Below are positions 3,722 through 61,091 of a stretch of 64,000 nucleotides of DNA, in pieces. Position 1 is the stretch's first letter; every line of letters begins with the position of its first letter. Made by a program: the position numbers and the translations under genes. The DNA comes from Ruminiclostridium herbifermentans. Lineage in GTDB: Bacteria; Bacillota; Clostridia; Acetivibrionales; DSM-1351. The notes under the pieces are model-generated. The model did not search any database. It saw nothing but the letters and a program-made list of their open reading frames with translations, and was not told the origin of the DNA. The stretch spans positions 2,472,501-2,536,500 of the forward strand of contig NZ_CP061336.1 of the NCBI RefSeq assembly GCF_005473905.2, read 5' to 3'.

Positions 3722-6268
3722 ATGTTGCGAGAAAAAAAACTTAGCTTTTTAGCAAATTTAATCCTTGTTATGCTCATGGCCTCAAGTATTTGTCAAACTT
3801 TATATACTTCGTTATTTATGACAACTAATTTAAGTGTGAAAATATTCTTATTAGTTGTAGGGTTTACTTTGCTATTCTATGTAATGTTCAGAAACAAAAT
3901 AACTACAATAGTATCCGGCATAGTATTTTGCATTATCTCAATAATAGGATTACTTTATATTATTTACGGTATTGGTGTTACAAATGCAGCAAATTGGATA
4001 AAAAACTATTCTAATTGGTTTATTGATGTTGTTAATGGATTTACTAATGGAAGTTCGATTTTATATATTAATATAGTTTTGATTTCTCTTTCATTTTTGA
4101 TTACACTATTTACTTTTATTTTTACATTAAAGGTTTACAATTTTTATTTTCTCACACTCATGCTCTTTAGTGTGTTTTATTTCCAATTACAACTTGATAT
4201 TTTTGTGAGTAATATTTCTTTCATTCTATTTATATTTTCTTTTTTATTGTATTACTTCTTCAATGTGTTAATGAAAAGAAGTCTACAATCTTCTTATGAT
4301 ATAGGTAATAAACTATTGTACCTTATTTGTATTTTGCCTATTTGTCTATTTGTAATAGCTTTTAGTTTATCTCTACCCATTAATGACAAAAGAATTGAAT
4401 TTCCATGGCTTGATTCTAAATTGGATTTTGCTATATCTTATTTTGTTGATAATGAAAGATCAGACTTTGAATATTTTTCATTTAAGGCAACTGGATTTGG
4501 GAAAAAAGGCAGATTAGGAGGAAATATAAAGTTAAGTAAAACTCATGTAATGAATGTTAAATCAGAGTCCTCCAAATTATATCTTAAGGCATCCTCAAAA
4601 GCATTTTATAATGGGTATAGCTGGTATGATAACGATAATCAGTTAACACAGCTTGGAGTATCAAACAATAATTACTCTATGCAAATTAATCAAGATGCTG
4701 AAGAATTTATCAACGGAATTTATATCGAAACGGGTATGAATCAAAATGATAAAATATTTAAACCTTCAAAAGCTGAAATTGAATTTGTAAATCTAAAAAC
4801 AAAATCTATTTTCGCTCCTCTTAAAGTAAATAATATTAATTTCAGAAACTTTCAAACACTTTTTGTAGATAATGAGCAAATTATTTCTTCAAGCGGAAAA
4901 CAGCAAAAGGGTTTTTCCTATTCATTAGAGTATAATAATTTAATTTTAAATAGCGATGAGTTTAAAAACATTTTAAGAAGAAGTGAAAAAGGATATTATA
5001 GAAAGCTTTTAAATAGCTACATAAAGGATGATTTAGCAAATTCAGCACTTGAAATCTTAAAGCAAAATAAACCTTTATATATAGATATGGAATCATTTCC
5101 TATTGATAATAAAATAGTTTCAGAATCAAATCTTGTTACGAATAGAATAGACTGGGAACCAGTTAATATTAGTAAAAAAAGAATTTTAGAAACAAAAGAA
5201 CTTAGCGATTTGATTATTAAGGCAGATGAAATATACAAGCGCTATACTCAAATACCCTATTTTATACCGCAACGAGTCAGTCAGTTGGCTCATGATCTTA
5301 CAAAAGATTTTGATAATAATTATGATAAGGCAAAAGCTATTGAAACATATTTATCAAGTACCTACAAATACACATTGAGTCCTGGTAATATTCCAAGAGA
5401 CAGAGATTTTGTTGACTATTTCCTATTTGAAGGAAAAAAAGGGTATTGTACATATTATGCGTCAGCTATGGCAATAATGCTTAGATGCATAGGCATTCCC
5501 GCTCGATATGTCGAGGGATATGTTATGCCTCCTTTAGCTACAAATGGAGTTTATAAGGTTACAAATGAGCAAGCTCATGCATGGGTTGAAGTTTACTTTG
5601 AAGGATTTGGTTGGATTCCATTTGAACCTACTGCTTCTTATGTTTCAAGAATGTATTATGATACAACAATCACATCACAATCTTATGACGATACTATGAG
5701 AAACTCAGGATACAGCAGCTATTTGGAATATTTAGAAATGATGGAGAGGAACAAAAACAATTCTAATATAAGCTATGACAATAGTGAATCAAATACCGTT
5801 GTTGATAATACTACAAATAATGTGCTTTTTGTATTAATAATAATTGCTATAGTTATTGGTATAATTTTACTTACTTTTATTTCATTAGTTTCATTAAATA
5901 CAATTAAGTCTTATCTTAAAATAAGAAGAATTAAAAAAGCCGAACCAAACACAGCTGTTCTTTTGGCATACAACTATATATTAAAAATTTTGAAAACTCA
6001 AAATATTAGTTATTATCCAGGAGAAACCCCCAATCAATTTGGTTTAAGAGTGGAAAAAAGGCTTGATTTTAAGGGCTACTCTTATAATAAAACAGACTTC
6101 ATAAAAATATCAAGTCATTATGTAGCTGCAAGATATAGCAAGACCCTATTGACAATACATGAACAAGAAGCAATGCTTGAATTTATATCCACCTTATTAA
6201 GCATTACTTATGAAAGAATGGGTAAACTAAAATATATAATTACTAGATATGTTTTAGGAAAGCTATAA
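3722..6268 (+). CDS. Membrane transglutaminase-like protein (TgpA type)
   Basis: 848 residues: six or more N-terminal membrane segments within about 1-220, a large exposed region with a transglutaminase-like core, one membrane segment near 700-725 and a cytoplasmic tail similar to DUF4129. The catalytic Cys is C576 (in KKGYCTYYASAM) and the His is H619 (in NEQAHAWVEV). The expected third acidic residue is E635 in WIPFEPT rather than Asp, a conservative change. Family members are thought to process or crosslink envelope proteins, and P. aeruginosa TgpA is essential. It completes the MoxR-DUF58 operon. GGAGG lies ten bases before the start. Confidence 0.88.
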   Translation: MLREKKLSFLANLILVMLMASSICQTLYTSLFMTTNLSVKIFLLVVGFTLLFYVMFRNKITTIVSGIVFCIISIIGLLYIIYGIGVTNAANWIKNYSNWFIDVVNGFTNGSSILYINIVLISLSFLITLFTFIFTLKVYNFYFLTLMLFSVFYFQLQLDIFVSNISFILFIFSFLLYYFFNVLMKRSLQSSYDIGNKLLYLICILPICLFVIAFSLSLPINDKRIEFPWLDSKLDFAISYFVDNERSDFEYFSFKATGFGKKGRLGGNIKLSKTHVMNVKSESSKLYLKASSKAFYNGYSWYDNDNQLTQLGVSNNNYSMQINQDAEEFINGIYIETGMNQNDKIFKPSKAEIEFVNLKTKSIFAPLKVNNINFRNFQTLFVDNEQIISSSGKQQKGFSYSLEYNNLILNSDEFKNILRRSEKGYYRKLLNSYIKDDLANSALEILKQNKPLYIDMESFPIDNKIVSESNLVTNRIDWEPVNISKKRILETKELSDLIIKADEIYKRYTQIPYFIPQRVSQLAHDLTKDFDNNYDKAKAIETYLSSTYKYTLSPGNIPRDRDFVDYFLFEGKKGYCTYYASAMAIMLRCIGIPARYVEGYVMPPLATNGVYKVTNEQAHAWVEVYFEGFGWIPFEPTASYVSRMYYDTTITSQSYDDTMRNSGYSSYLEYLEMMERNKNNSNISYDNSESNTVVDNTTNNVLFVLIIIAIVIGIILLTFISLVSLNTIKSYLKIRRIKKAEPNTAVLLAYNYILKILKTQNISYYPGETPNQFGLRVEKRLDFKGYSYNKTDFIKISSHYVAARYSKTLLTIHEQEAMLEFISTLLSITYERMGKLKYIITRYVLGKL

Positions 6269-6596
6269 AGCTCATATTAAAAGAGTATTTAGTTGGAATT
6301 GTAAATCGTTTTTAATGTACTGCTAATAAGAAGAATTTTGATACATCTTTTAATTTATTGTTATCACTAAATCATCAAAATCATCAACTTTTTCTCATAA
6401 AATCTATCAGTTTTAGTGAATAATCATGGTAGCTGCAGAATTAGTTGTTAAATTAGTAATTGTAATAAATTTCGGTTAACAGTTCTACCCCAACTATTGA
6501 CATAGAACAAAAAACTAGCATTTTCATTATCATAGATGTTATTCTATTTATAAATTAATGGACATAAAGTAACGAAATTTTGTTATATTATAAACA
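6269..6596. other. Intergenic stretch, nothing recognised
   Basis: This AT-rich spacer lies between the convergent transglutaminase and GGDEF/EAL genes. I see no gene, RNA or convincing repeat in it apart from the terminator at its right edge. Confidence 0.6.
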
Positions 6597-6630
6597 AGGT
6601 ATGAAAGCCAATCTTTCGGCCTTCATACCT
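6597..6630. terminator. Bidirectional terminator
   Basis: AGGTATGAA-GCC pairs with GGCCTTCATACCT in a 13-bp stem, with one position that is G-U on the minus strand. A T-rich run follows on the plus strand (TTTAATTTTAAT) and a weaker one on the minus strand. It lies between convergent genes and can serve both. Confidence 0.75.
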
Positions 6631-6700
6631 TTAATTTTAATATTATAGAAATCTATCTACAGAAAAAATTTCACAGACTCCCTTATTCTTGCTTTTATAA

Positions 6701-53439: not shown

Positions 53440-54022
53440 AACTGAACTTTCGATAAAATACTTATTGTTAACTGATACGCGAGTCAACTAAGATAATTGG
53501 GCTACTTGGATAAATATATTTGATTGAATTTTAAGTGAAGAACAGTTGATTCTACTAGGGTCAGTTGTGAAACAAGAAATAATGTGTATCAATAATATAA
53601 TGCTTAAATATTACTCCCGCGCAATATATATCTATTGCTTGCTCACGAAATTGATGCTGAAATAATTGCGATGAAGAACAAGCACTTCTGCCGACCGTAT
53701 AATACTCGATCTCCTTGTCTCGGGTCAATACTCACTGCTAAATCCTGTAGCAGTATCGGCTACAAAACTTGTTCTCACCTATTATTTCTATCATCAACTT
53801 CTAACCGAACTTCGCAATTAGATATATATTACACTCGCGTACTATTTCTTGTAATAAGACATCAGTATATAGAAAATGTTGTTTTGCAACAGCCACCGAT
53901 AACAATGAAGCAGATGCTGAATGTGGTAAGGCATTATCAACCTCTGCAAATTCAACAAATATCTTGTGAGTAGCCCATTTAGATAAGTTTTTACTGAAGT
54001 ACCAGTACGATAATTTCACCTT
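53440..54022. mobile_element. Foldback (MITE-like) element, copy 1
   Basis: The ends are inverted copies: AAGATAATTGGGCTACTTG at the left, GTGAGTAGCCCATTTAGATA at the right. Inside, GAAATAATTGC..GAAGAACAAG pairs with CTTGTTCTCACC..TATTATTTC, so the whole unit folds on itself. It is about 580 bp with no transposase and matches the copy at 58.6-59.2 kb over nearly its full length. Two open frames within it run across the palindrome and have no ribosome site; I treat them as spurious. Confidence 0.65.
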
Positions 54023-55482: not shown

Positions 55483-55705
55483 AAATATATCCCCCAAATA
55501 TCATTTTCAATAATGCTATTTTAATACATAATATTAAACTATGCAAGTTTAATATTCTATTTATTCAAAAAATATTTTTCGAAAGGAATTAACTTTTGTT
55601 TTGAATGAGTTTTATGCAAGAATCCATTAAATAAACTGCAGTTATTTTGAGTATACTAATACAATATATTAATTTTTCGAGAGTATTATGGTTACGGAGA
55701 TAAAA

Positions 55706-56188
55706 ATGAAAAAGAATAAATATACAACTGAAAAAGACATTGAACTATTAAGAATCGAAATTGAAGAAGCAAAGCGTACAAATATTAAATCAAAAAGAAA
55801 CAAGTTAGTTAAATTTGCAATATATACTCTCATTTACTTATTACTTTTTAGTACGCTAATATCTGTATTTATATCAAAACACTCCGGTGAAACTCCTCAG
55901 ATTTTTGGGTATCAGCTGTATATTATTAGGTCTGCAAGTATGTCACCAACTCTTGAAACCGGCTCAATAATATTATCAAAAAAGCCTGCTGACGCAACCA
56001 CACTTAAGGTTGGCGATATTGTTACCTTTTCTCAAGCAGAAGCAATAATTACCCATAGAATAATAGAAGTTGTTAATGAGGGCAGTATTAAATATAGAAC
56101 AAAAGGAGATAATCCTAGCAATACCCCAGACGTTAACCTTTTGTCACCAGAAAATATAAAGGCAGTATTTGTTATGAAATTATACTAA
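55706..56188 (+). CDS. sipW: SipW-type signal peptidase I
   Basis: 160 residues from ATG 55706, five bases after GGAGA; an ATG at 55688 would add six residues. A basic N-terminus, one membrane helix (about 35-57), then the S26 catalytic domain: Ser78 in IRSASMSPTLETGS, His117 in IITHRIIEVV and Asp135 in TKGDNPSNTPD. The Ser-His-Asp arrangement is that of SipW and ER-type peptidases rather than the Ser-Lys dyad of ordinary bacterial SPase I. SipW-type enzymes cut precursors such as TasA and CalY, and two such precursors are encoded nearby. It lacks a C-terminal membrane helix. Confidence 0.9.
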   Translation: MKKNKYTTEKDIELLRIEIEEAKRTNIKSKRNKLVKFAIYTLIYLLLFSTLISVFISKHSGETPQIFGYQLYIIRSASMSPTLETGSIILSKKPADATTLKVGDIVTFSQAEAIITHRIIEVVNEGSIKYRTKGDNPSNTPDVNLLSPENIKAVFVMKLY

Positions 56189-56212
56189 CTATTTTATTTA
56201 GAGGTTAATTAA

Positions 56213-57178
56213 ATGCAGCTTCCTATAATACTATTGAAAAATCTTTATTCAAACGAATATTATGCAAGTAAACAGGAGCCTAATCTGCCAATTGAACAGG
56301 TTTTAAAAGATATTAATTTTTCTGCAAATACAGGTGAACTATGGACTGTACTTGGAAGTTCTGTATATGAAATAAAGCTATTACTTGAAATTATGGCCAA
56401 TGCAAAAGCATATGAGAAAGGTAAATTAATGATTGCAGGCTTTGACACCACTAAGAAAAAAAGCATCATCCTCCCCCATGTATTTTATATTGGAAGTACC
56501 AGCATGGCTTATGGGAATATGAACGTATTAGAATATTTGATGTTTATTACAAGCAATTCAAATAGGAATTCTGTTGACAGGCAGGAATATCTGCTTAATT
56601 ACCTTTTAGATTCAGACATGGGTTATATATGCCTAACTCCAATCTCTATGCTTACTAATCAGGAAAAATCCATAGTTATACTAACTGCTGCAATGTTAAG
56701 CGATAGTAAACTAATTATTTTTAATCTGCCGAAGCTTCACTATTCACCAAAAGAAATAAAAATAATAAGCAAATTGACCTCACGTATTCCATATTTAGGG
56801 AAGTCCTTAATTGTTAGTACACAGTGCTATAAGCTTGCTCAATTTATCAGCAGCCATATATGTTATATAGATAAAGGCAGAATACTTTTTAATGATACTC
56901 TTAATAAATTTCTTGAATATGACAAAGTAACCTTTTTGATTGAACCAGAGAATTTAAACTATACAGTACAATCACTTAAGTATGCTCTGCCACAATTTGA
57001 GTACCTAATAGAAAATAATATTTTGAAAATTATTACAAATACAGATAGTAAGAAAGCAGGCACACTTCTATTTGATGCATTAGCGTCCTTTAAAATAGAT
57101 CCTGCCATTGTAATGAAAAATAAAAAGAACATTAAAAATTCAATTCAAGGATTGATGAGACATTATGATATACAATAA
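56213..57178 (+). CDS. ABC ATPase-like protein with eroded nucleotide-binding motifs
   Basis: 321 residues with the overall plan of an ABC ATPase: VLKDINFSANTGELWTVLGS corresponds to the strand leading to Walker A, NMNVLEYLMF to the region before the signature, KLIIFNLP to Walker B and SLIVSTQCYKLAQFISSHIC to the switch region. The key residues are missing: the Walker A slot reads LGSSVYEIKL with no GKT/S, no LSGGQ-like signature is visible, Walker B has Asn-Leu for the Asp-Glu, and the H-loop His is Gln. ATP hydrolysis is therefore unlikely. The stop overlaps the membrane gene by 14 bp, indicating a coupled pair. Confidence 0.7.
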   Translation: MQLPIILLKNLYSNEYYASKQEPNLPIEQVLKDINFSANTGELWTVLGSSVYEIKLLLEIMANAKAYEKGKLMIAGFDTTKKKSIILPHVFYIGSTSMAYGNMNVLEYLMFITSNSNRNSVDRQEYLLNYLLDSDMGYICLTPISMLTNQEKSIVILTAAMLSDSKLIIFNLPKLHYSPKEIKIISKLTSRIPYLGKSLIVSTQCYKLAQFISSHICYIDKGRILFNDTLNKFLEYDKVTFLIEPENLNYTVQSLKYALPQFEYLIENNILKIITNTDSKKAGTLLFDALASFKIDPAIVMKNKKNIKNSIQGLMRHYDIQ

Positions 57179-58577
57179 AAGCATATTAATTAAAGAATTG
57201 ACAGAATCTTATTTTGACCATTCAATTAGTAATAAAAGGCGTCTTGGATATGCCCTGTTTCTTGCATTGGTTTCTTTTGCATTTCATTATATTCTTAGAA
57301 CTCTTGAAAAAAGTGTACTATCTGACGCTGTACCAAAGTATATGAGCCCAAGTTGTTTTAGTACTCTATTTATTTATGTAGATTTATTTTATCTCTTTAT
57401 TGTATCATATTTAGCTACCAATTATAACTTTCTCACTTTTGATGAAATACGAAACAACAAATGGTATATTCCTATAAAGTTTGGCTTTAGTCCTATTAAA
57501 ATGATTCTAACAAAGCTGTATGCTAGACTGATAACGATAACTTTTATTTATGGGTTTGGTTTTTTATTAATGCTATTTCTAACTACCTTGTTAAAATATC
57601 CATTAGTATTTGAGTATATTATTCCTATTTTTGCTTTAGGTTTAATAGATTTTATTTTTATAATGATTGTTTCTATGACCGCTTCACTATATTTTAAAAA
57701 AGGTATAATATCAAATTATGCACTTCTTTTCTCTGTCATTTCAATTATTGTTCTAAAACGTTATCTTGGTTATTACAGTCTTATAAACGATATAAGCAAT
57801 TTTCAAAATATCTATATCTTATCTAAATTTTCTAAATATTTTTCTATTTTGATTTTTGCTTCCATAATATGTATTCTTATTATAATTACAAAAGGAATAA
57901 CAAATGCAGAATATTATAACTTTTCACTCTATGAAATGGATTATGATATACCTGATGATGTAATAATTACAATGCAACCTGATTCTGAGTTCAAAAGAAC
58001 TATAACTCATATAATTGACCCAAATAAAAGACTCAGAATTTTGACTAGAATATTAAACTCATTATTATTTATTTTAATATTGTCATTTATAATTGTTAAC
58101 GTAATAGTACTTGTAATCTCTATATCTACAGCCAGAAAAGAAGTAGCAATATTTAGGGTTATTCCTTATGTATTTCAATCAGAATCAATGTATCCTGCTA
58201 TTATGTATAACGATTTAGTGTTTTTCGAAAAAACTAATGATATCAAGGTTTCAATAGGAGATATAGTAATCTATGAATCCAATGGAGAGGCAAGCATTGC
58301 AAGAGTACAATTATCTCAAGCCGGAAAAGTAACTGTTTCTATTGATAATCATCCTTCTGAAAGTGAAGGAAGAGTTTATAGTGAAACTATAAACATAAAC
58401 CAAATATACGGAAAGTACATTGGTAAAAGCAGATGGCTTGGCTTATTAATACTTTTTGCTAATAGCACAATAGGTCGCCTGACATTGCTGCTCATACCAA
58501 TAATTTTACTATTTTATTATAAGCCTATTGTTGCAATGCTTAGATATATAATTAATAATGGCATGAATGAGGAATAA
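57165..58577 (+). CDS. ABC-2-like membrane protein fused to a signal-peptidase-like domain
   Basis: 470 residues. About six membrane helices within 28-245 resemble an ABC-2 permease; a further helix (about 297-322) leads into an S26 signal-peptidase domain (about 330-420) and a final helix (425-452). The S26 domain keeps the nucleophile motif SESMYPAI (Ser341), GDIVIYES and Asp394, but the expected histidine is Ala379 (SIARV aligned with THRI in the SipW gene two genes upstream). It is therefore probably inactive, or uses another base. It overlaps the preceding ATPase-like gene and closes the operon. I know of no characterised protein with this fusion. Confidence 0.75.
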   Translation: MIYNKSILIKELTESYFDHSISNKRRLGYALFLALVSFAFHYILRTLEKSVLSDAVPKYMSPSCFSTLFIYVDLFYLFIVSYLATNYNFLTFDEIRNNKWYIPIKFGFSPIKMILTKLYARLITITFIYGFGFLLMLFLTTLLKYPLVFEYIIPIFALGLIDFIFIMIVSMTASLYFKKGIISNYALLFSVISIIVLKRYLGYYSLINDISNFQNIYILSKFSKYFSILIFASIICILIIITKGITNAEYYNFSLYEMDYDIPDDVIITMQPDSEFKRTITHIIDPNKRLRILTRILNSLLFILILSFIIVNVIVLVISISTARKEVAIFRVIPYVFQSESMYPAIMYNDLVFFEKTNDIKVSIGDIVIYESNGEASIARVQLSQAGKVTVSIDNHPSESEGRVYSETININQIYGKYIGKSRWLGLLILFANSTIGRLTLLLIPIILLFYYKPIVAMLRYIINNGMNEE

Positions 58578-58654
58578 TTTCTAGATTATCATGTATGTTT
58601 CAATAATTAGTTATCACAACGCGTTAAGTTATCATGTTATACTAGCTTATTTAA

Positions 58655-59170
58655 AACTTAGTTTTCACGTAAAATACGTATTGCTTTTATTGGTACACGA
58701 GTATAACTTAGATAAATGGGTTACTTGATTAAGGATATTTGCTTGAATTTGTAGGAGAATTGTTGATTCTGACCAGAAACTGTTGCAAAACAAAAAATAG
58801 TATATTGATATTAAACTGCTTAAATAGTACTCCCGTGCAATATATATCTATTACTCGCTCACGAAATTGACGATGAAATAATTGCGGTGAAGAACAAGTA
58901 CTTCCGCCGGCCGTATTAACAAGGCATCCTGTCTCGAGTTAATACTCACAACAACTTCCTGTAGCTGTGTCGGCTACAATACTTTTTCTTCACCTATTAT
59001 TTCTAGCATCAATTTCTAACCGAGCTTCGCAACTATATATATATATATTACACTCGCGTACTATATTAACTATAAAGAACCTATTCAAATTCAATAAATA
59101 TCTTAGGAGTAACCCATTTAGATAAGTTTGTACAGAAGTGCCCTTAAACCAGTATATTTACCTACAAGGG
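58655..59170. mobile_element. Foldback (MITE-like) element, copy 2
   Basis: Left end GGTACACGAGTATAACTTAG with AAATGGGTTACT, right end AGTAACCCATTT with AGATAAGTTTGTACAGAAGT, inverted to each other. The interior matches the copy at 53.4-54.0 kb (ACTCCCGTGCAATATATATC, GAAGAACAAGTACTTCCGCC, CACTCGCGTACTAT). It has no coding capacity. It separates the permease-fusion gene from the TasA-like gene. Confidence 0.65.
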
Positions 59171-59463
59171 TCGTACAATTAATAAGTTCGAGCAAAGCTA
59201 ACCTATTTTCAATTGAAATGCATACTATTTAAATAGTATTTTTATGTAGAAAAGTTCAAACATTACAATTATCTTCCTGTTGACCTAAGCCAGTCTCAAG
59301 TATATAATCATACATGGTGTTTGTTTATGTTAACCATTACGAAATTTTCAAATGATTGCACATACTGTAATATGCTAATTTGAGTATAAATTGTATATTA
59401 CATTTTAAATAAATTTTTATACAGCGTTATGAAAAAGACTCAATTTTGTTCAAACCAATTAGA

Positions 59464-59553
59464 CCACTGCTTTTAGATAAGCAGTGACTAGTAATCTAAA
59501 TTTTTACTTAATACAAAATAGCATTACTATTTTCATGGAATTTCCATGAATTA
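59464..59553. promoter_or_regulatory. Hairpin and operator-like palindrome before the TasA-like gene
   Basis: CACTGCT and AGCAGTG (59465-59486) form a 7-bp stem, and TTCATGGAA-T-TTCCATGAA (59532-59550) is a 9-bp perfect dyad 83 bp before the start codon. The dyad is a good candidate regulator site; the regulator is unknown. The region also contains an A-family hairpin abutting the ribosome site (59605-59625). Confidence 0.5.
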
Positions 59554-59632
59554 AGATGTCCATGTATTTCTGCAAGGATTATTTATTATCAATTTTATTA
59601 TTGTACGCCCAAAGTGGGTATAGGAGGATTAT

Positions 59633-60178
59633 ATGAAAAAACATATTATTATTGGAGCTCTAATATTAACTATTGCTACTTCAATGACAGCAGGAACTTT
59701 TGCAACTTATACAAAAACACTTTCACCAATTACAGGAAGTGTAGCTGCTAAGTCTTTTTATATTGGAAATAATGAAACTTATTTCCCTGACATTGAATTA
59801 GCACCGTCTGAAAAAACTGAATGGAATTTTGAAGTTGTTAACTTTAATGCCGATGGCACAGTTAATGCAGTTGATACTGATATGACAATTTCATTAAATG
59901 TAGCTGCAGAAGCAGACAAACAGCCAATTGATGGACTGAACGTGAGCATATACGATGAAAATAACAATCAAGTTGGTACTACAGTTATTAAAAACGGTCA
60001 AATGTCCTTTGATGTAGAAAAAGCATTCACAGCTAATTCAAAAGCAGCACAGAAGTACAAACTTATAGCTGAATGGAAAAATTCTAATAGCAATAATATT
60101 GATACTTTAAATGCTGAAAACAAAAACGCAACAGCAATTAGCGTTACTATTACAGGTACTCAGTGCTTGCACAAATAA
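59633..60178 (+). CDS. TasA/CalY-like secreted protein
   Basis: 181 residues. The SipW-type signal (MKKHIIIGALILTIATSMTA, then GTFATYTKTLSPITGSVAAK) is typical of TasA/CalY precursors, which SipW cuts and which form extracellular fibres in bacilli. The mature part is beta-rich (NFEVVNFNADGTVNAV, DMTISLNVAAEADKQPIDG, GLNVSIYDENNNQVGT) and ends in ITGTQCLHK. The ATG follows AGGAGG. It is preceded by a foldback element, so it is a separate transcript from the peptidase operon. The assignment rests on the signal and length; fibre formation is not shown. Confidence 0.75.
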   Translation: MKKHIIIGALILTIATSMTAGTFATYTKTLSPITGSVAAKSFYIGNNETYFPDIELAPSEKTEWNFEVVNFNADGTVNAVDTDMTISLNVAAEADKQPIDGLNVSIYDENNNQVGTTVIKNGQMSFDVEKAFTANSKAAQKYKLIAEWKNSNSNNIDTLNAENKNATAISVTITGTQCLHK

Positions 60179-60204
60179 GATTAATTATTATGTATTATTG
60201 TTTA

Positions 60205-60335
60205 TTTGATACACACCAATACAGCTTAGATAAATGGGTTACTTGGTTAAGATATTTGATTGAATTTGTGAGTAACCCATTTAGATAAGTTTGTACGGGA
60301 ATACCAGTAAGGTAGTACTTAGAACTTACCTGCAA
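60205..60335. mobile_element. Foldback element, internally deleted copy 3
   Basis: Only the two ends of the element at 58.7-59.1 kb remain, fused: GCTTAGATAAATGGGTTACT..TTGTGAGTAACCCATTTAGA..GTTTGTAC. The inverted ends lie within 70 bp of each other. It supports the boundaries of the element. Confidence 0.6.
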
Positions 60336-60399
60336 TGTTCATAAAATAATTAGCAAAATACGGTAATATATCTCATTTTGCTAATTTAGTTTAAGCTAA

Positions 60400-60735
60400 G
60401 TTTACAGGTAGAATACTTCTGGCTTTTGCTGATGCGTCAGTAAAACTTAGACAGATAAGATAATTCATCTTTCCTAGTTGAAAAATCGTAGGTGTTAAAC
60501 CATTATCAATGGAAAGTTGGATTAGAAATAATTGCATGAATTAGATGGTGAGTTGCAAGTATTTTTGCCGAAAAACCGACACGATGTCGGTTTTAGCACG
60601 CTATGAACCATGGATGGTGAATGTGTGCGACGGCTAAAATACTTAAGATAAACCATTACTAATTCATGCAATTATTTCGTCAACAAGCCATTGATAAGCT
60701 TTAACACCGATAGATTTTTGAGGTGGTAAAGTTGA
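60400..60735. mobile_element. Second, related foldback element
   Basis: A left part (GCTTTTGCTGATGCGTCAGT, then AAAACTTAGACAGATAAG) resembles the left end of the other elements. The body is a long palindrome: GAAATAATTGCATGAATTAG (about 60523-60542) is matched by CTAATTCATGCAATTATTTC, and AAAATCG..GGTGTTAAACC by the GCTTTAACACCG side. The centre contains a small perfect stem around CCGACACGATGTCGG. No gene is inside. Confidence 0.6.
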
Positions 60736-60800
60736 ATAAGATAATTAATTAAAGATATTTGTTAATACATAATAGTTAATTATTTACGGAGGTTCAATAC

Positions 60801-61091
60801 ATGAAAAAAATACTATTTCCATTGGTCATTATCATTTGTATTATGACCTCTATGCTATCAGACTCAATGGCTGTATACACAAAAACACTGCCCCCAATAT
60901 CAGGAACAATAACTGCTAAATCATTTAATATTAGTGATTACCCTCTTTGGAGTTATGAAAAAGAGTTGCAACACCAATATAGAATATACGATATTGTACA
61001 ATATAACGGAAAAATCTATAAGCGTAAGGATTCGGGCTTCTTTAATTATAAAACACCGGATGAAAACAAATGCTGGGTATTAATTGGTTAA
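60801..61091 (+). CDS. Small SipW-dependent secreted protein with a chitin-binding-like module
   Basis: 96 residues. The N-terminus (MKKILFPLVIIICIMTSMLS, then MAVYTKTLPPISGTITAKSF) closely parallels the TasA-like protein 0.6 kb upstream, with YTKTL.PI.G and AKSF shared. The remainder (DYPLWSYEKELQHQYRIYDI, VQYNGKIYKRKD and DENKCWVLIG) follows the pattern of CBM5/12 chitin-binding domains (Trp, IYDIVQYNGKIY, closing W..IG). GGAGG is seven bases before the ATG. The stop overlaps the convergent dipeptidase by 12 bp. It may be a truncated derivative or a small cell-wall-binding factor. Confidence 0.7.
   Translation: MKKILFPLVIIICIMTSMLSDSMAVYTKTLPPISGTITAKSFNISDYPLWSYEKELQHQYRIYDIVQYNGKIYKRKDSGFFNYKTPDENKCWVLIG

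Follow-up and report, generated by a model that had tools for sequence, protein, structure and literature searches.

Here, we report a gene cassette of Ruminiclostridium herbifermentans (RefSeq assembly GCF_005473905.2, contig NZ_CP061336.1) that encodes an intact SipW-type signal peptidase, an ATP-binding cassette (ABC) protein without its nucleotide motifs (pseudo-ABC), a membrane protein joining an ABC-2-like permease to an S26 domain that lacks the catalytic His, and two precursors with a common SipW-type signal. It lies in a stretch of 64,000 nucleotides (positions 2,472,501 to 2,536,500, forward strand; hereafter the window). The cassette is a real, conserved system. We read it as a SipW/TasA-type fiber-assembly system with a catalytically empty membrane platform; that the ABC-permease pair serves as a noncatalytic platform for assembly and holding we consider, on balance, probable, and the details are less certain. 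The known part is most likely the SipW/TasA-type fiber and the new part the noncatalytic accessory pair. A first-pass annotation, made from the sequence by a model, had already listed these elements, all of which were found where it had placed them, on the + strand (Table 1).

Linkage and distribution of the cassette

After duplicate removal, 17 loci were collected in Firmicutes, one of them (L036) truncated (G-numbers denote genomes searched and L-numbers loci examined). The SipW, ABC and permease genes are contiguous and in the same order in all 16 untruncated loci. In 13 of the 16, two precursor genes stand ahead of them (PREa-PREb-SipW-ABC-permease); the window and Ruminiclostridium sufflavum DSM 19573 (G009) read SipW-ABC-permease-precursor 1-precursor 2, and the sequence of L031 ends upstream of PREb. 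Small variations occur, with an additional PREb-like gene in G138, a 4.4-kb gap between PREb and SipW in G764, and, in Anaerobacterium chartisolvens, PREa and PREb separated by the gene of a small protein that begins like a signal (L018:7371-7697), for which no Pfam or NCBIfam match was found. Because the gene order is kept in relatives, the arrangement in the window is more than chance. The first-pass annotation had called for a look at the gene order in other clostridia, where it does recur, and would have been refuted by unrelated conserved partners of the ABC and permease genes elsewhere; these genes are linked to SipW in 16/16 loci, and an ABC profile at E 1e-40 recovered exactly the 4 full-permease genomes among the 398 of the phylum sample described below. 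A fiber-subunit profile gave 17 matches at E 0.01 in 8 cassette-bearing genomes, all at the cassette.

R. herbifermentans has one permease copy, and of 11 genomes searched in the genus two gave a permease match, the window's own and that of R. sufflavum. Both cassettes occupy one site, between the same aminotransferase and dipeptidase genes, and in all 8 compared of the 9 other genus genomes (G008 excluded) these two genes are adjacent, with no match to a cassette gene between them. Matches to the S26 half alone were not counted as permeases; on that basis, a near-full-length permease occurred in 3 of 58 genomes of the order (4 matched, 1 S26 only), and a full one in 5 of 391 genomes of the class sample (11 matched, 6 S26 only) and 4 of 398 of the phylum sample (5 matched, 1 S26 only). 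The class and phylum samples were drawn evenly, and scoring was limited to the best few first-look candidates per genome; their S26-only matches score better to the SipW profile. A GTDB contig scan gave 12 loci, including A. chartisolvens, five Desulfosporosinus and several metagenome-assembled genomes (one Lutispora). No permease match was found among the plasmids of PLSDB at E 1e-5.

Quick trees of the three proteins agree in grouping the window with R. sufflavum, the five Desulfosporosinus with one another, and G764 with G802, and disagree in placing A. chartisolvens and L030. G138 and G439 are paired in two of the three trees, the SipW tree being the point of disagreement.

Intact and lost catalytic motifs

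The window SipW scored 89 bits against TIGR02228 (curated cut-off, 51.85) and 114 bits (E 5.9e-33) against NF046067, the Bacillus SipW equivalog, under its cut-off of 190. Ser, His and Asp act in the catalysis of endoplasmic reticulum (ER)-type SipW proteins, and the His is needed. In alignment, all three boxes are intact in 16/16 cassette SipWs, the window copy included, so that the peptidase described by the first-pass annotation is confirmed as to its motifs. By sequence, it would be the active signal peptidase of the cassette, and cleavage of TasA-like precursors is predicted. Its best-reading start is at 55706, 6 nucleotides 3' of a GGAG (55696-55699); an alternative ATG lies upstream at 55688, and most relatives start a few residues ahead of KYTT.

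A charged tail motif, YTTxxxIxxMRxEI with small variations, stands at the start of all 16 cassette SipWs. Profile search found a SipW-like match at E 1e-15 in 62 of the 391 class genomes; the 5 full-permease genomes were the only ones to reach 229-285 bits, aligned from model position 1-4, the next best outside them reaching 104 bits. Part of this gap is expected, because the model was built from cassette SipWs. Two further alignments starting from model position 3, in G413 (80 bits) and G217 (62 bits), are interrupted by stops and were not counted as tail-bearing. The tail would be a natural candidate dock for the pseudo-ABC protein.

For the pseudo-ABC protein of the window, the best NCBIfam family was GldA (E 1e-12, residues 28-294; far under the GldA cut-off) and the PDB profile match was 1vpl (E 5.8e-12); motif positions were checked on the alignment with 1vpl and compared with what we take to be the canonical ABC patterns (Table 1). 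The first-pass annotation had seen the nucleotide motifs missing in the window, where all five are altered, and the loss proved general: Walker A, Q-loop, signature, Walker B and H-loop are intact in none of the 16 pseudo-ABCs, and the residues expected of an ABC exporter (Walker A Lys, Walker B Asp/Glu, LSGGQ, H-loop His) are absent in 16/16. In place of the P-loop Lys stand Ile (15) and Met (1), and the preceding Gly has become Glu (15) or Asp (1). The signature reads LTxxE[KR]; in Walker B, Asn replaces Asp, and Leu, Phe or Val replaces Glu; Gln, Lys, Cys or Pro takes the place of the H-loop His; and the Q-loop Gln is absent.

With all five ATP motifs lost, the pair might be what is left of an active exporter in decay. 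This we hold to be very improbable. The reading frames of 16 ABC and 17 permease copies are free of stops, the replacements are largely the same across distant relatives, and omega (Nei-Gojobori; one pair saturated at silent sites) ranged from 0.09 to 0.42 in the pseudo-ABC and from 0.05 to 0.19 in the permease, with purifying selection in 5/5 pairs for each. Values well below 1 in both proteins argue for maintenance, not decay, and decay of the permease is ruled out by the low omega in all five pairs.

Residues 86-112 of the pseudo-ABC (the Q-loop region, with an MNVLE core) had a conservation of 0.85, versus 0.68 overall, the highest of the compared stretches. In ABC systems, this region lies near the contact between ABC protein and permease. 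Such conservation, together with the ABC-2-like fold kept in the permease model, could also fit a pair that still moves something, as a passive, ATP-free conduit or lipid gate aiding export or release of the subunits. We consider this improbable, since none of the 16 pseudo-ABCs has a motif for energy use, and since the precursors carry ordinary signals, hydrophobic core included, which Sec should be able to handle by itself.

The permease gene overlaps the ABC gene by 14 nucleotides. In its predicted model, the permease half structurally matches NosY, CcmB, ABCA and ABCG chains (VIA-align, on which all fold comparisons of predicted models here rest), and the ABC-2-like fold is supported by this model of modest confidence. 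TIGR02228 matched the C-terminal S26 domain at E 2.1e-10 (40.7 bits, under the cut-off of 51.85), in keeping with the coupled S26 fusion claimed by the first-pass annotation, and the domain scores better to SipW-type models than to SipA. The His of the catalytic triad is kept in 0/17 permeases (Glu 15, Ala 1, Gly 1), and Ser in two (window and G138), the remaining 15 having Thr. All 17 keep the Asp aligned with KGDNP of SipW, and the second Asp of the box is lost. The wording "peptidase-like" chosen in the first-pass annotation therefore fits a window copy that keeps Ser and not His.

The regularity of these replacements (a hydroxyl residue and the KGDNP-aligned Asp in 17/17, Glu for His in 15/17) indicates patterned change, not random decay, and would suit an altered second peptidase that uses Thr or Ser with Asp or Glu at another site, for instance in fiber release or in trimming PREa or precursor 2, the pseudo-ABC pair being its membrane holder. 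We find this rather unlikely, as the His required by ER-type SipW is gone in 17/17 and the second Asp of the SipW box is lost as well. SipA of Streptococcus pyogenes, whose catalytic pair is likewise replaced, is reported to have had no activity (PMC4049620).

SipA has a signal-peptidase fold with a conserved peptide cleft and is essential for pilus polymerization (PMC4049620). It lacks its catalytic residues and belongs to a pilus locus, to which the permease S26 domain would be similar, with its S26 profile match under the cut-off, its lost His and, in the window, its retained Ser; SipA differs in being free-standing, kin to Ser-Lys peptidases and part of a sortase pilus system, whereas the S26 domain here is SipW-type and fused to an ABC-2-like permease. 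By analogy, SipA would be the nearest precedent for the dead S26 domain, and the permease S26 would bind the region of the cut site or strand and leave it uncut.

ABC proteins can also act as signal couplers, as in BceAB and FtsEX, and a nucleotide-free form could be a static anchor. A pair that acts as a sensor or anchor, tying the fiber to the cell or reporting the state of the envelope, nevertheless seems improbable to us, because the pair includes a fused SipW-type S26 domain and is strictly linked to an intact SipW, both of which point to the handling of precursors.

Likely fiber subunits and carbohydrate-binding partners

The common SipW-type signal of the two precursors, proposed in the first-pass annotation, was recovered by direct comparison: the window precursors share 9 of 24 signal residues, 13 of the 21 residues that directly follow the assumed cut site and 2 of the 21 beyond these, and the R. 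sufflavum pair shares 9, 10 and 2 over the same stretches. Judged from these sequences, the contrast between a shared strand and an unlike remainder appears clear just in these two pairs. In the whole genome (E<=0.01), precursor 2 was the only other match to the fiber-subunit profile (E 1.6e-6, model positions 1-47).

Precursor 1 was not linked to TasA by Pfam, NCBIfam or PDB profile search. Pfam M73 (PF12389) gave 0 matches in the R. herbifermentans genome and no row for precursor 1 at E<=5, and among PREb proteins of relatives it gave 1 weak row in 12 (E 0.013). Sequence profiles thus miss TasA/camelysin here, and precursor 1 is TasA-like by its fold model only: TasA was the first and longest alignment among the 50 matches listed by VIA-align, and the TasA-like fold is supported at the modest confidence of that model.

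Precursor 2 appears from its sequence to be little more than a donor-like strand and a stretch resembling a carbohydrate-binding module (CBM) of family 5/12. Against PF02839 (cut-off, 26.2 bits), the window copy scored 15.5 bits (E 0.018) and the R. sufflavum copy 26.1 bits (E 9.1e-6), the matches spanning about 17 of 44 profile positions; the R. sufflavum copy also matched chitinase 2rts in the PDB (E 4.6e-4). PREa of the relatives consists of a TasA-like domain followed by CBM_2, with PF00553 over its cut-off in 12/12 copies tested of 13 (L039 was left out). PDB relatives of this CBM_2 occur in a chitodextrinase, a chitinase and glucanases, and one Trp is present in 13/13 and a second in 12/13. 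The occupation of one slot by two different CBM families (CBM2 and CBM5/12-like) is an argument that binding glycans belongs to what the system does.

Table 1. Features of the cassette and its intergenic gaps in the window
Feature	Position	Strand	Basis
SipW-type (ER-type) signal peptidase, 160 aa	55706..56188	+	TIGR02228 match; catalytic boxes
SipW N-terminal cytosolic tail, YTTxxxIxxMRxEI-type motif	55715..55774	+	Candidate dock for the pseudo-ABC
Pseudo-ABC ATPase subunit, like a nucleotide-binding domain without nucleotide motifs	56213..57178	+	GldA match; 1vpl match; motif loss
Degenerate Walker A, GSSVYEIK instead of GxxGxGK[ST]	56351..56383	+	Alignment; presumed canonical pattern
Degenerate ABC signature, LTNQEK instead of LSGGQ	56645..56677	+	Alignment; presumed canonical pattern
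Degenerate Walker B, IIFNLP instead of hhhhDEP	56711..56737	+	Alignment; presumed canonical pattern
ABC-2-like permease and pseudo-S26 fusion	57165..58577	+	Open reading frame overlapping the ABC gene; fold model; S26 profile
ABC-2-like permease half, residues 3-249	57171..57911	+	Fold model
SipW-type S26 domain without catalytic His, residues 296-454	58050..58526	+	NF046067 and TIGR02228, both below cut-off
Dispersed repeat copy, insert in permease/precursor 1 gap	58636..59169	.	65 partial genome matches; short gap in R. sufflavum
Precursor 1, TasA-like fiber subunit with SipW-type signal	59633..60178	+	Signal; fold model
Assumed mature N terminus of precursor 1, proposed donor strand TYTKTLSPITGSVAAKSFYIG	59705..59767	+	Likeness to precursor 2
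TwoAYGGAY RNA match between precursors, probably repeat-associated	60523..60680	+	Rfam match
Precursor 2, signal, donor-strand-like segment and CBM5/12-like stretch	60801..61091	+	PF02839; subunit profile
Donor-strand-like assumed mature N terminus of precursor 2, VYTKTLPPISGTITAKSFNIS	60873..60935	+	Likeness to precursor 1
CBM5/12-like C-terminal stretch of precursor 2	60936..61088	+	PF02839; chitinase PDB match in R. sufflavum copy

The gaps within the window cassette (1,055 and 622 nucleotides, versus 149 and 138 in R. sufflavum) hold repeats. The 65 partial genome matches of the first-gap query include the query itself and count some places on both strands; another copy lies at about 53454-53845 of the window, and most copies are about 225-415 nucleotides long. 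The 622-nucleotide gap ahead of precursor 2 contains shorter fragments of the same repeat and the TwoAYGGAY match. TwoAYGGAY had 9 matches in the genome, 4 of them over the cut-off; 5 of the 9, the window match not among them, lie within dispersed repeat copies on the opposite strand, so that part of what this Rfam family captures may be a mobile palindromic repeat. No TwoAYGGAY was found in the 9 loci of the same system that were searched, and on its probable repeat association and this absence we reject it as a regulator. Repeats and RNA match are regarded as inserts, not as parts of the system.

At L063, where neither the pseudo-ABC nor a full permease gave a match, an intact-looking SipW (5523-6101) is overlapped by a second SipW-type S26 protein (6082-6645; TIGR02228, 55 bits) that by eye seems to have lost the Ser, His and Asp boxes. 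From these sequences, dead SipW partners may be more widespread.

Inspection by eye of the five Desulfosporosinus loci (L032, L033, L034, L037, L039) shows a terminator-like hairpin between PREb and SipW and then a conserved block around ATAGGACATA ahead of SipW, a possible attenuator. The hairpin would fit an excess of subunits over machinery.

The fibers could be spore-surface appendages, with the platform in the mother cell, an alternative that competes on the site of action and not on the platform mechanism. Two neighborhoods invite it: in G802, PREb and SipW are separated by a spore germination receptor operon of the GerA type (GerA, GerAC, permease) that runs in the opposite direction (L058:1490-5419), and in A. 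chartisolvens, a long collagen-like (GXX repeat) gene lies downstream of the cassette (L018:12039-13691). A conserved region before PREa in the five Desulfosporosinus loci, inspected by eye, looks like a promoter of the housekeeping type (consensus TTGACC and TATTAT), which speaks against spore expression, and we deem the spore alternative unlikely.

A putative platform for fiber assembly

The first-pass annotation had read the noncatalytic pair as a possible scaffold or chaperone that serves SipW processing and assembly. Our results support that suggestion, and we infer the role itself along the following lines. Their SipW-type signals would lead the precursors out through the general Sec pathway, and active SipW would cut after residue 24, exposing in the window an N-terminal strand YTKTL..I.G...AKSF.I that could enter the next TasA-like subunit by donor-strand exchange and fill its groove. 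The nucleotide-free ATPase would be joined to the ABC-2-like permease in one fixed complex. On the inner side, the pseudo-ATPase would dock the SipW tail; on the outer side, the pseudo-S26 domain, with a SipW-like cleft that does not cut, would hold the fresh strand and hand it to the growing fiber. The simplest role for an ABC-2-like scaffold without ATP motifs would be a static platform at the fiber base that unites SipW, the exiting precursor and the growing end. The carbohydrate-binding partner (precursor 2 in the window, PREa elsewhere) may cap or decorate the fiber, which would give cells a hold on crystalline beta-1,4-glycans, for instance cellulose or chitin.

In favor of this platform stand the linkage, the triad kept in SipW beside the motifs lost in the pair, the selection, the ABC-2 and TasA matches, the subunit matches confined to the cassette, the strand likeness of the window precursors, CBM_2 in PREa, the SipA precedent and the conserved 86-112 stretch. 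Other observations weigh against it. The P-loop region of the pseudo-ABC, although noncanonical, has a conservation of 0.83, nearly as high as that of residues 86-112, and some other ligand may bind there. The window S26 copy retains Ser. The permease model is poor in its S26 part, where 11 of the 17 ten-residue blocks from 291 to 460 score under 60; Tudor-like barrels are listed as matches for the weakly modeled residues 354-426, and the first PDB row for this part, SipA, has an E value of 0.053, which is at chance level and is followed by eukaryotic SEC11C (0.09) and ribosomal L26 (0.11). The precursor 1 model has a mean predicted local distance difference test score of 59, and unrelated beta-sandwich proteins equal TasA in Z. 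Nine PREa/PREb pairs are less contrasted than the window pair (signal, 11-17/24; strand, 14-17/21; next stretch, 9-14/21). Cellulose use is not known from Desulfosporosinus, so CBM2 there may bind something else. Fibers, docking and strand holding are drawn here from genes and models, and the accessible parts of the accounts of BsaA and TasA describe both without such a pair, so a platform is not generally needed.

Known fiber systems share parts of this arrangement, as far as the sections of the cited papers available here describe them. In Bacillus subtilis, the N-terminal strand of TasA completes the next subunit (PMC9674648, PMC10151520), and TapA, which starts the fibers, carries a TasA-like N terminus (AFHDI in TapA, AFNDI in TasA; PMC10151520). 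Like the cassette, tapA-sipW-tasA of B. subtilis and sipW-calY of Bacillus cereus set a dedicated SipW beside precursors, which have the TasA fold in the bacilli and are TasA-like by model in the cassette; the common mature N-terminal strand of TapA and TasA may have its counterpart in the strand likeness of the window precursors. In those sections, both operons are described without an ABC-like pair or a CBM, whereas the cassette has the pair and a CBM or CBM-like stretch, which agrees with the statement in the first-pass annotation that the fiber systems of bacilli lack such a transporter; B. subtilis TasA is described there without the pair. The cassette also differs from tapA-sipW-tasA in a precursor 2 that seems little more than strand and CBM-like stretch and in not being reached by TasA-family Pfam or NCBIfam models. 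Clostridium perfringens has another clostridial SipW operon, sipW-bsaABCRSD, whose product BsaA forms SipW-dependent extracellular polymers and, as a recombinant protein, polymerizes alone (PMC7395162). In the accessible main text, this operon consists of SipW, BsaA-D and a two-component system, and "ABC" occurs 0 times (PMC7395162). From ABC-2 exporters and NosDFY-like maturation machines, the cassette differs by five lost nucleotide motifs and a C-terminal S26 domain. Among the titles and abstract openings found on SipW/TasA fibers, BsaA and SipW with CBM, few of them from subscription papers, and in the cited passages, no description of such a pair or platform was found, and searches for SipW in Desulfosporosinus and for nucleotide-free ABC proteins gave no literature match.

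Our results go beyond the first-pass annotation in the carbohydrate-binding partner, the likely donor strands and the wider distribution, which includes Desulfosporosinus. A bolder form of the proposal makes the cassette a Gram-positive counterpart of the usher, in which two enzyme folds, those of an ABC exporter and of a signal peptidase, both catalytically empty and partly fused, would make up a nucleotide-free membrane platform that takes donor strands from an active SipW and builds CBM-bearing fibers outward from the cell surface; we put this forward tentatively and with some doubt.

How TasA-type fibers are started, ordered and anchored at the Gram-positive membrane is described, in the parts of the published cases available, without a dedicated membrane assembler. 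The coupling of an intact SipW to an empty ABC-2/S26 complex makes this assembly question testable by gene deletion. If the proposal is true, selection would here have kept a complete ABC exporter after the loss of every nucleotide motif, which would be unusual. The carbohydrate-binding partner suggests a fiber that holds cellulose or chitin, which would help to understand how cellulolytic clostridia attach to their substrates.

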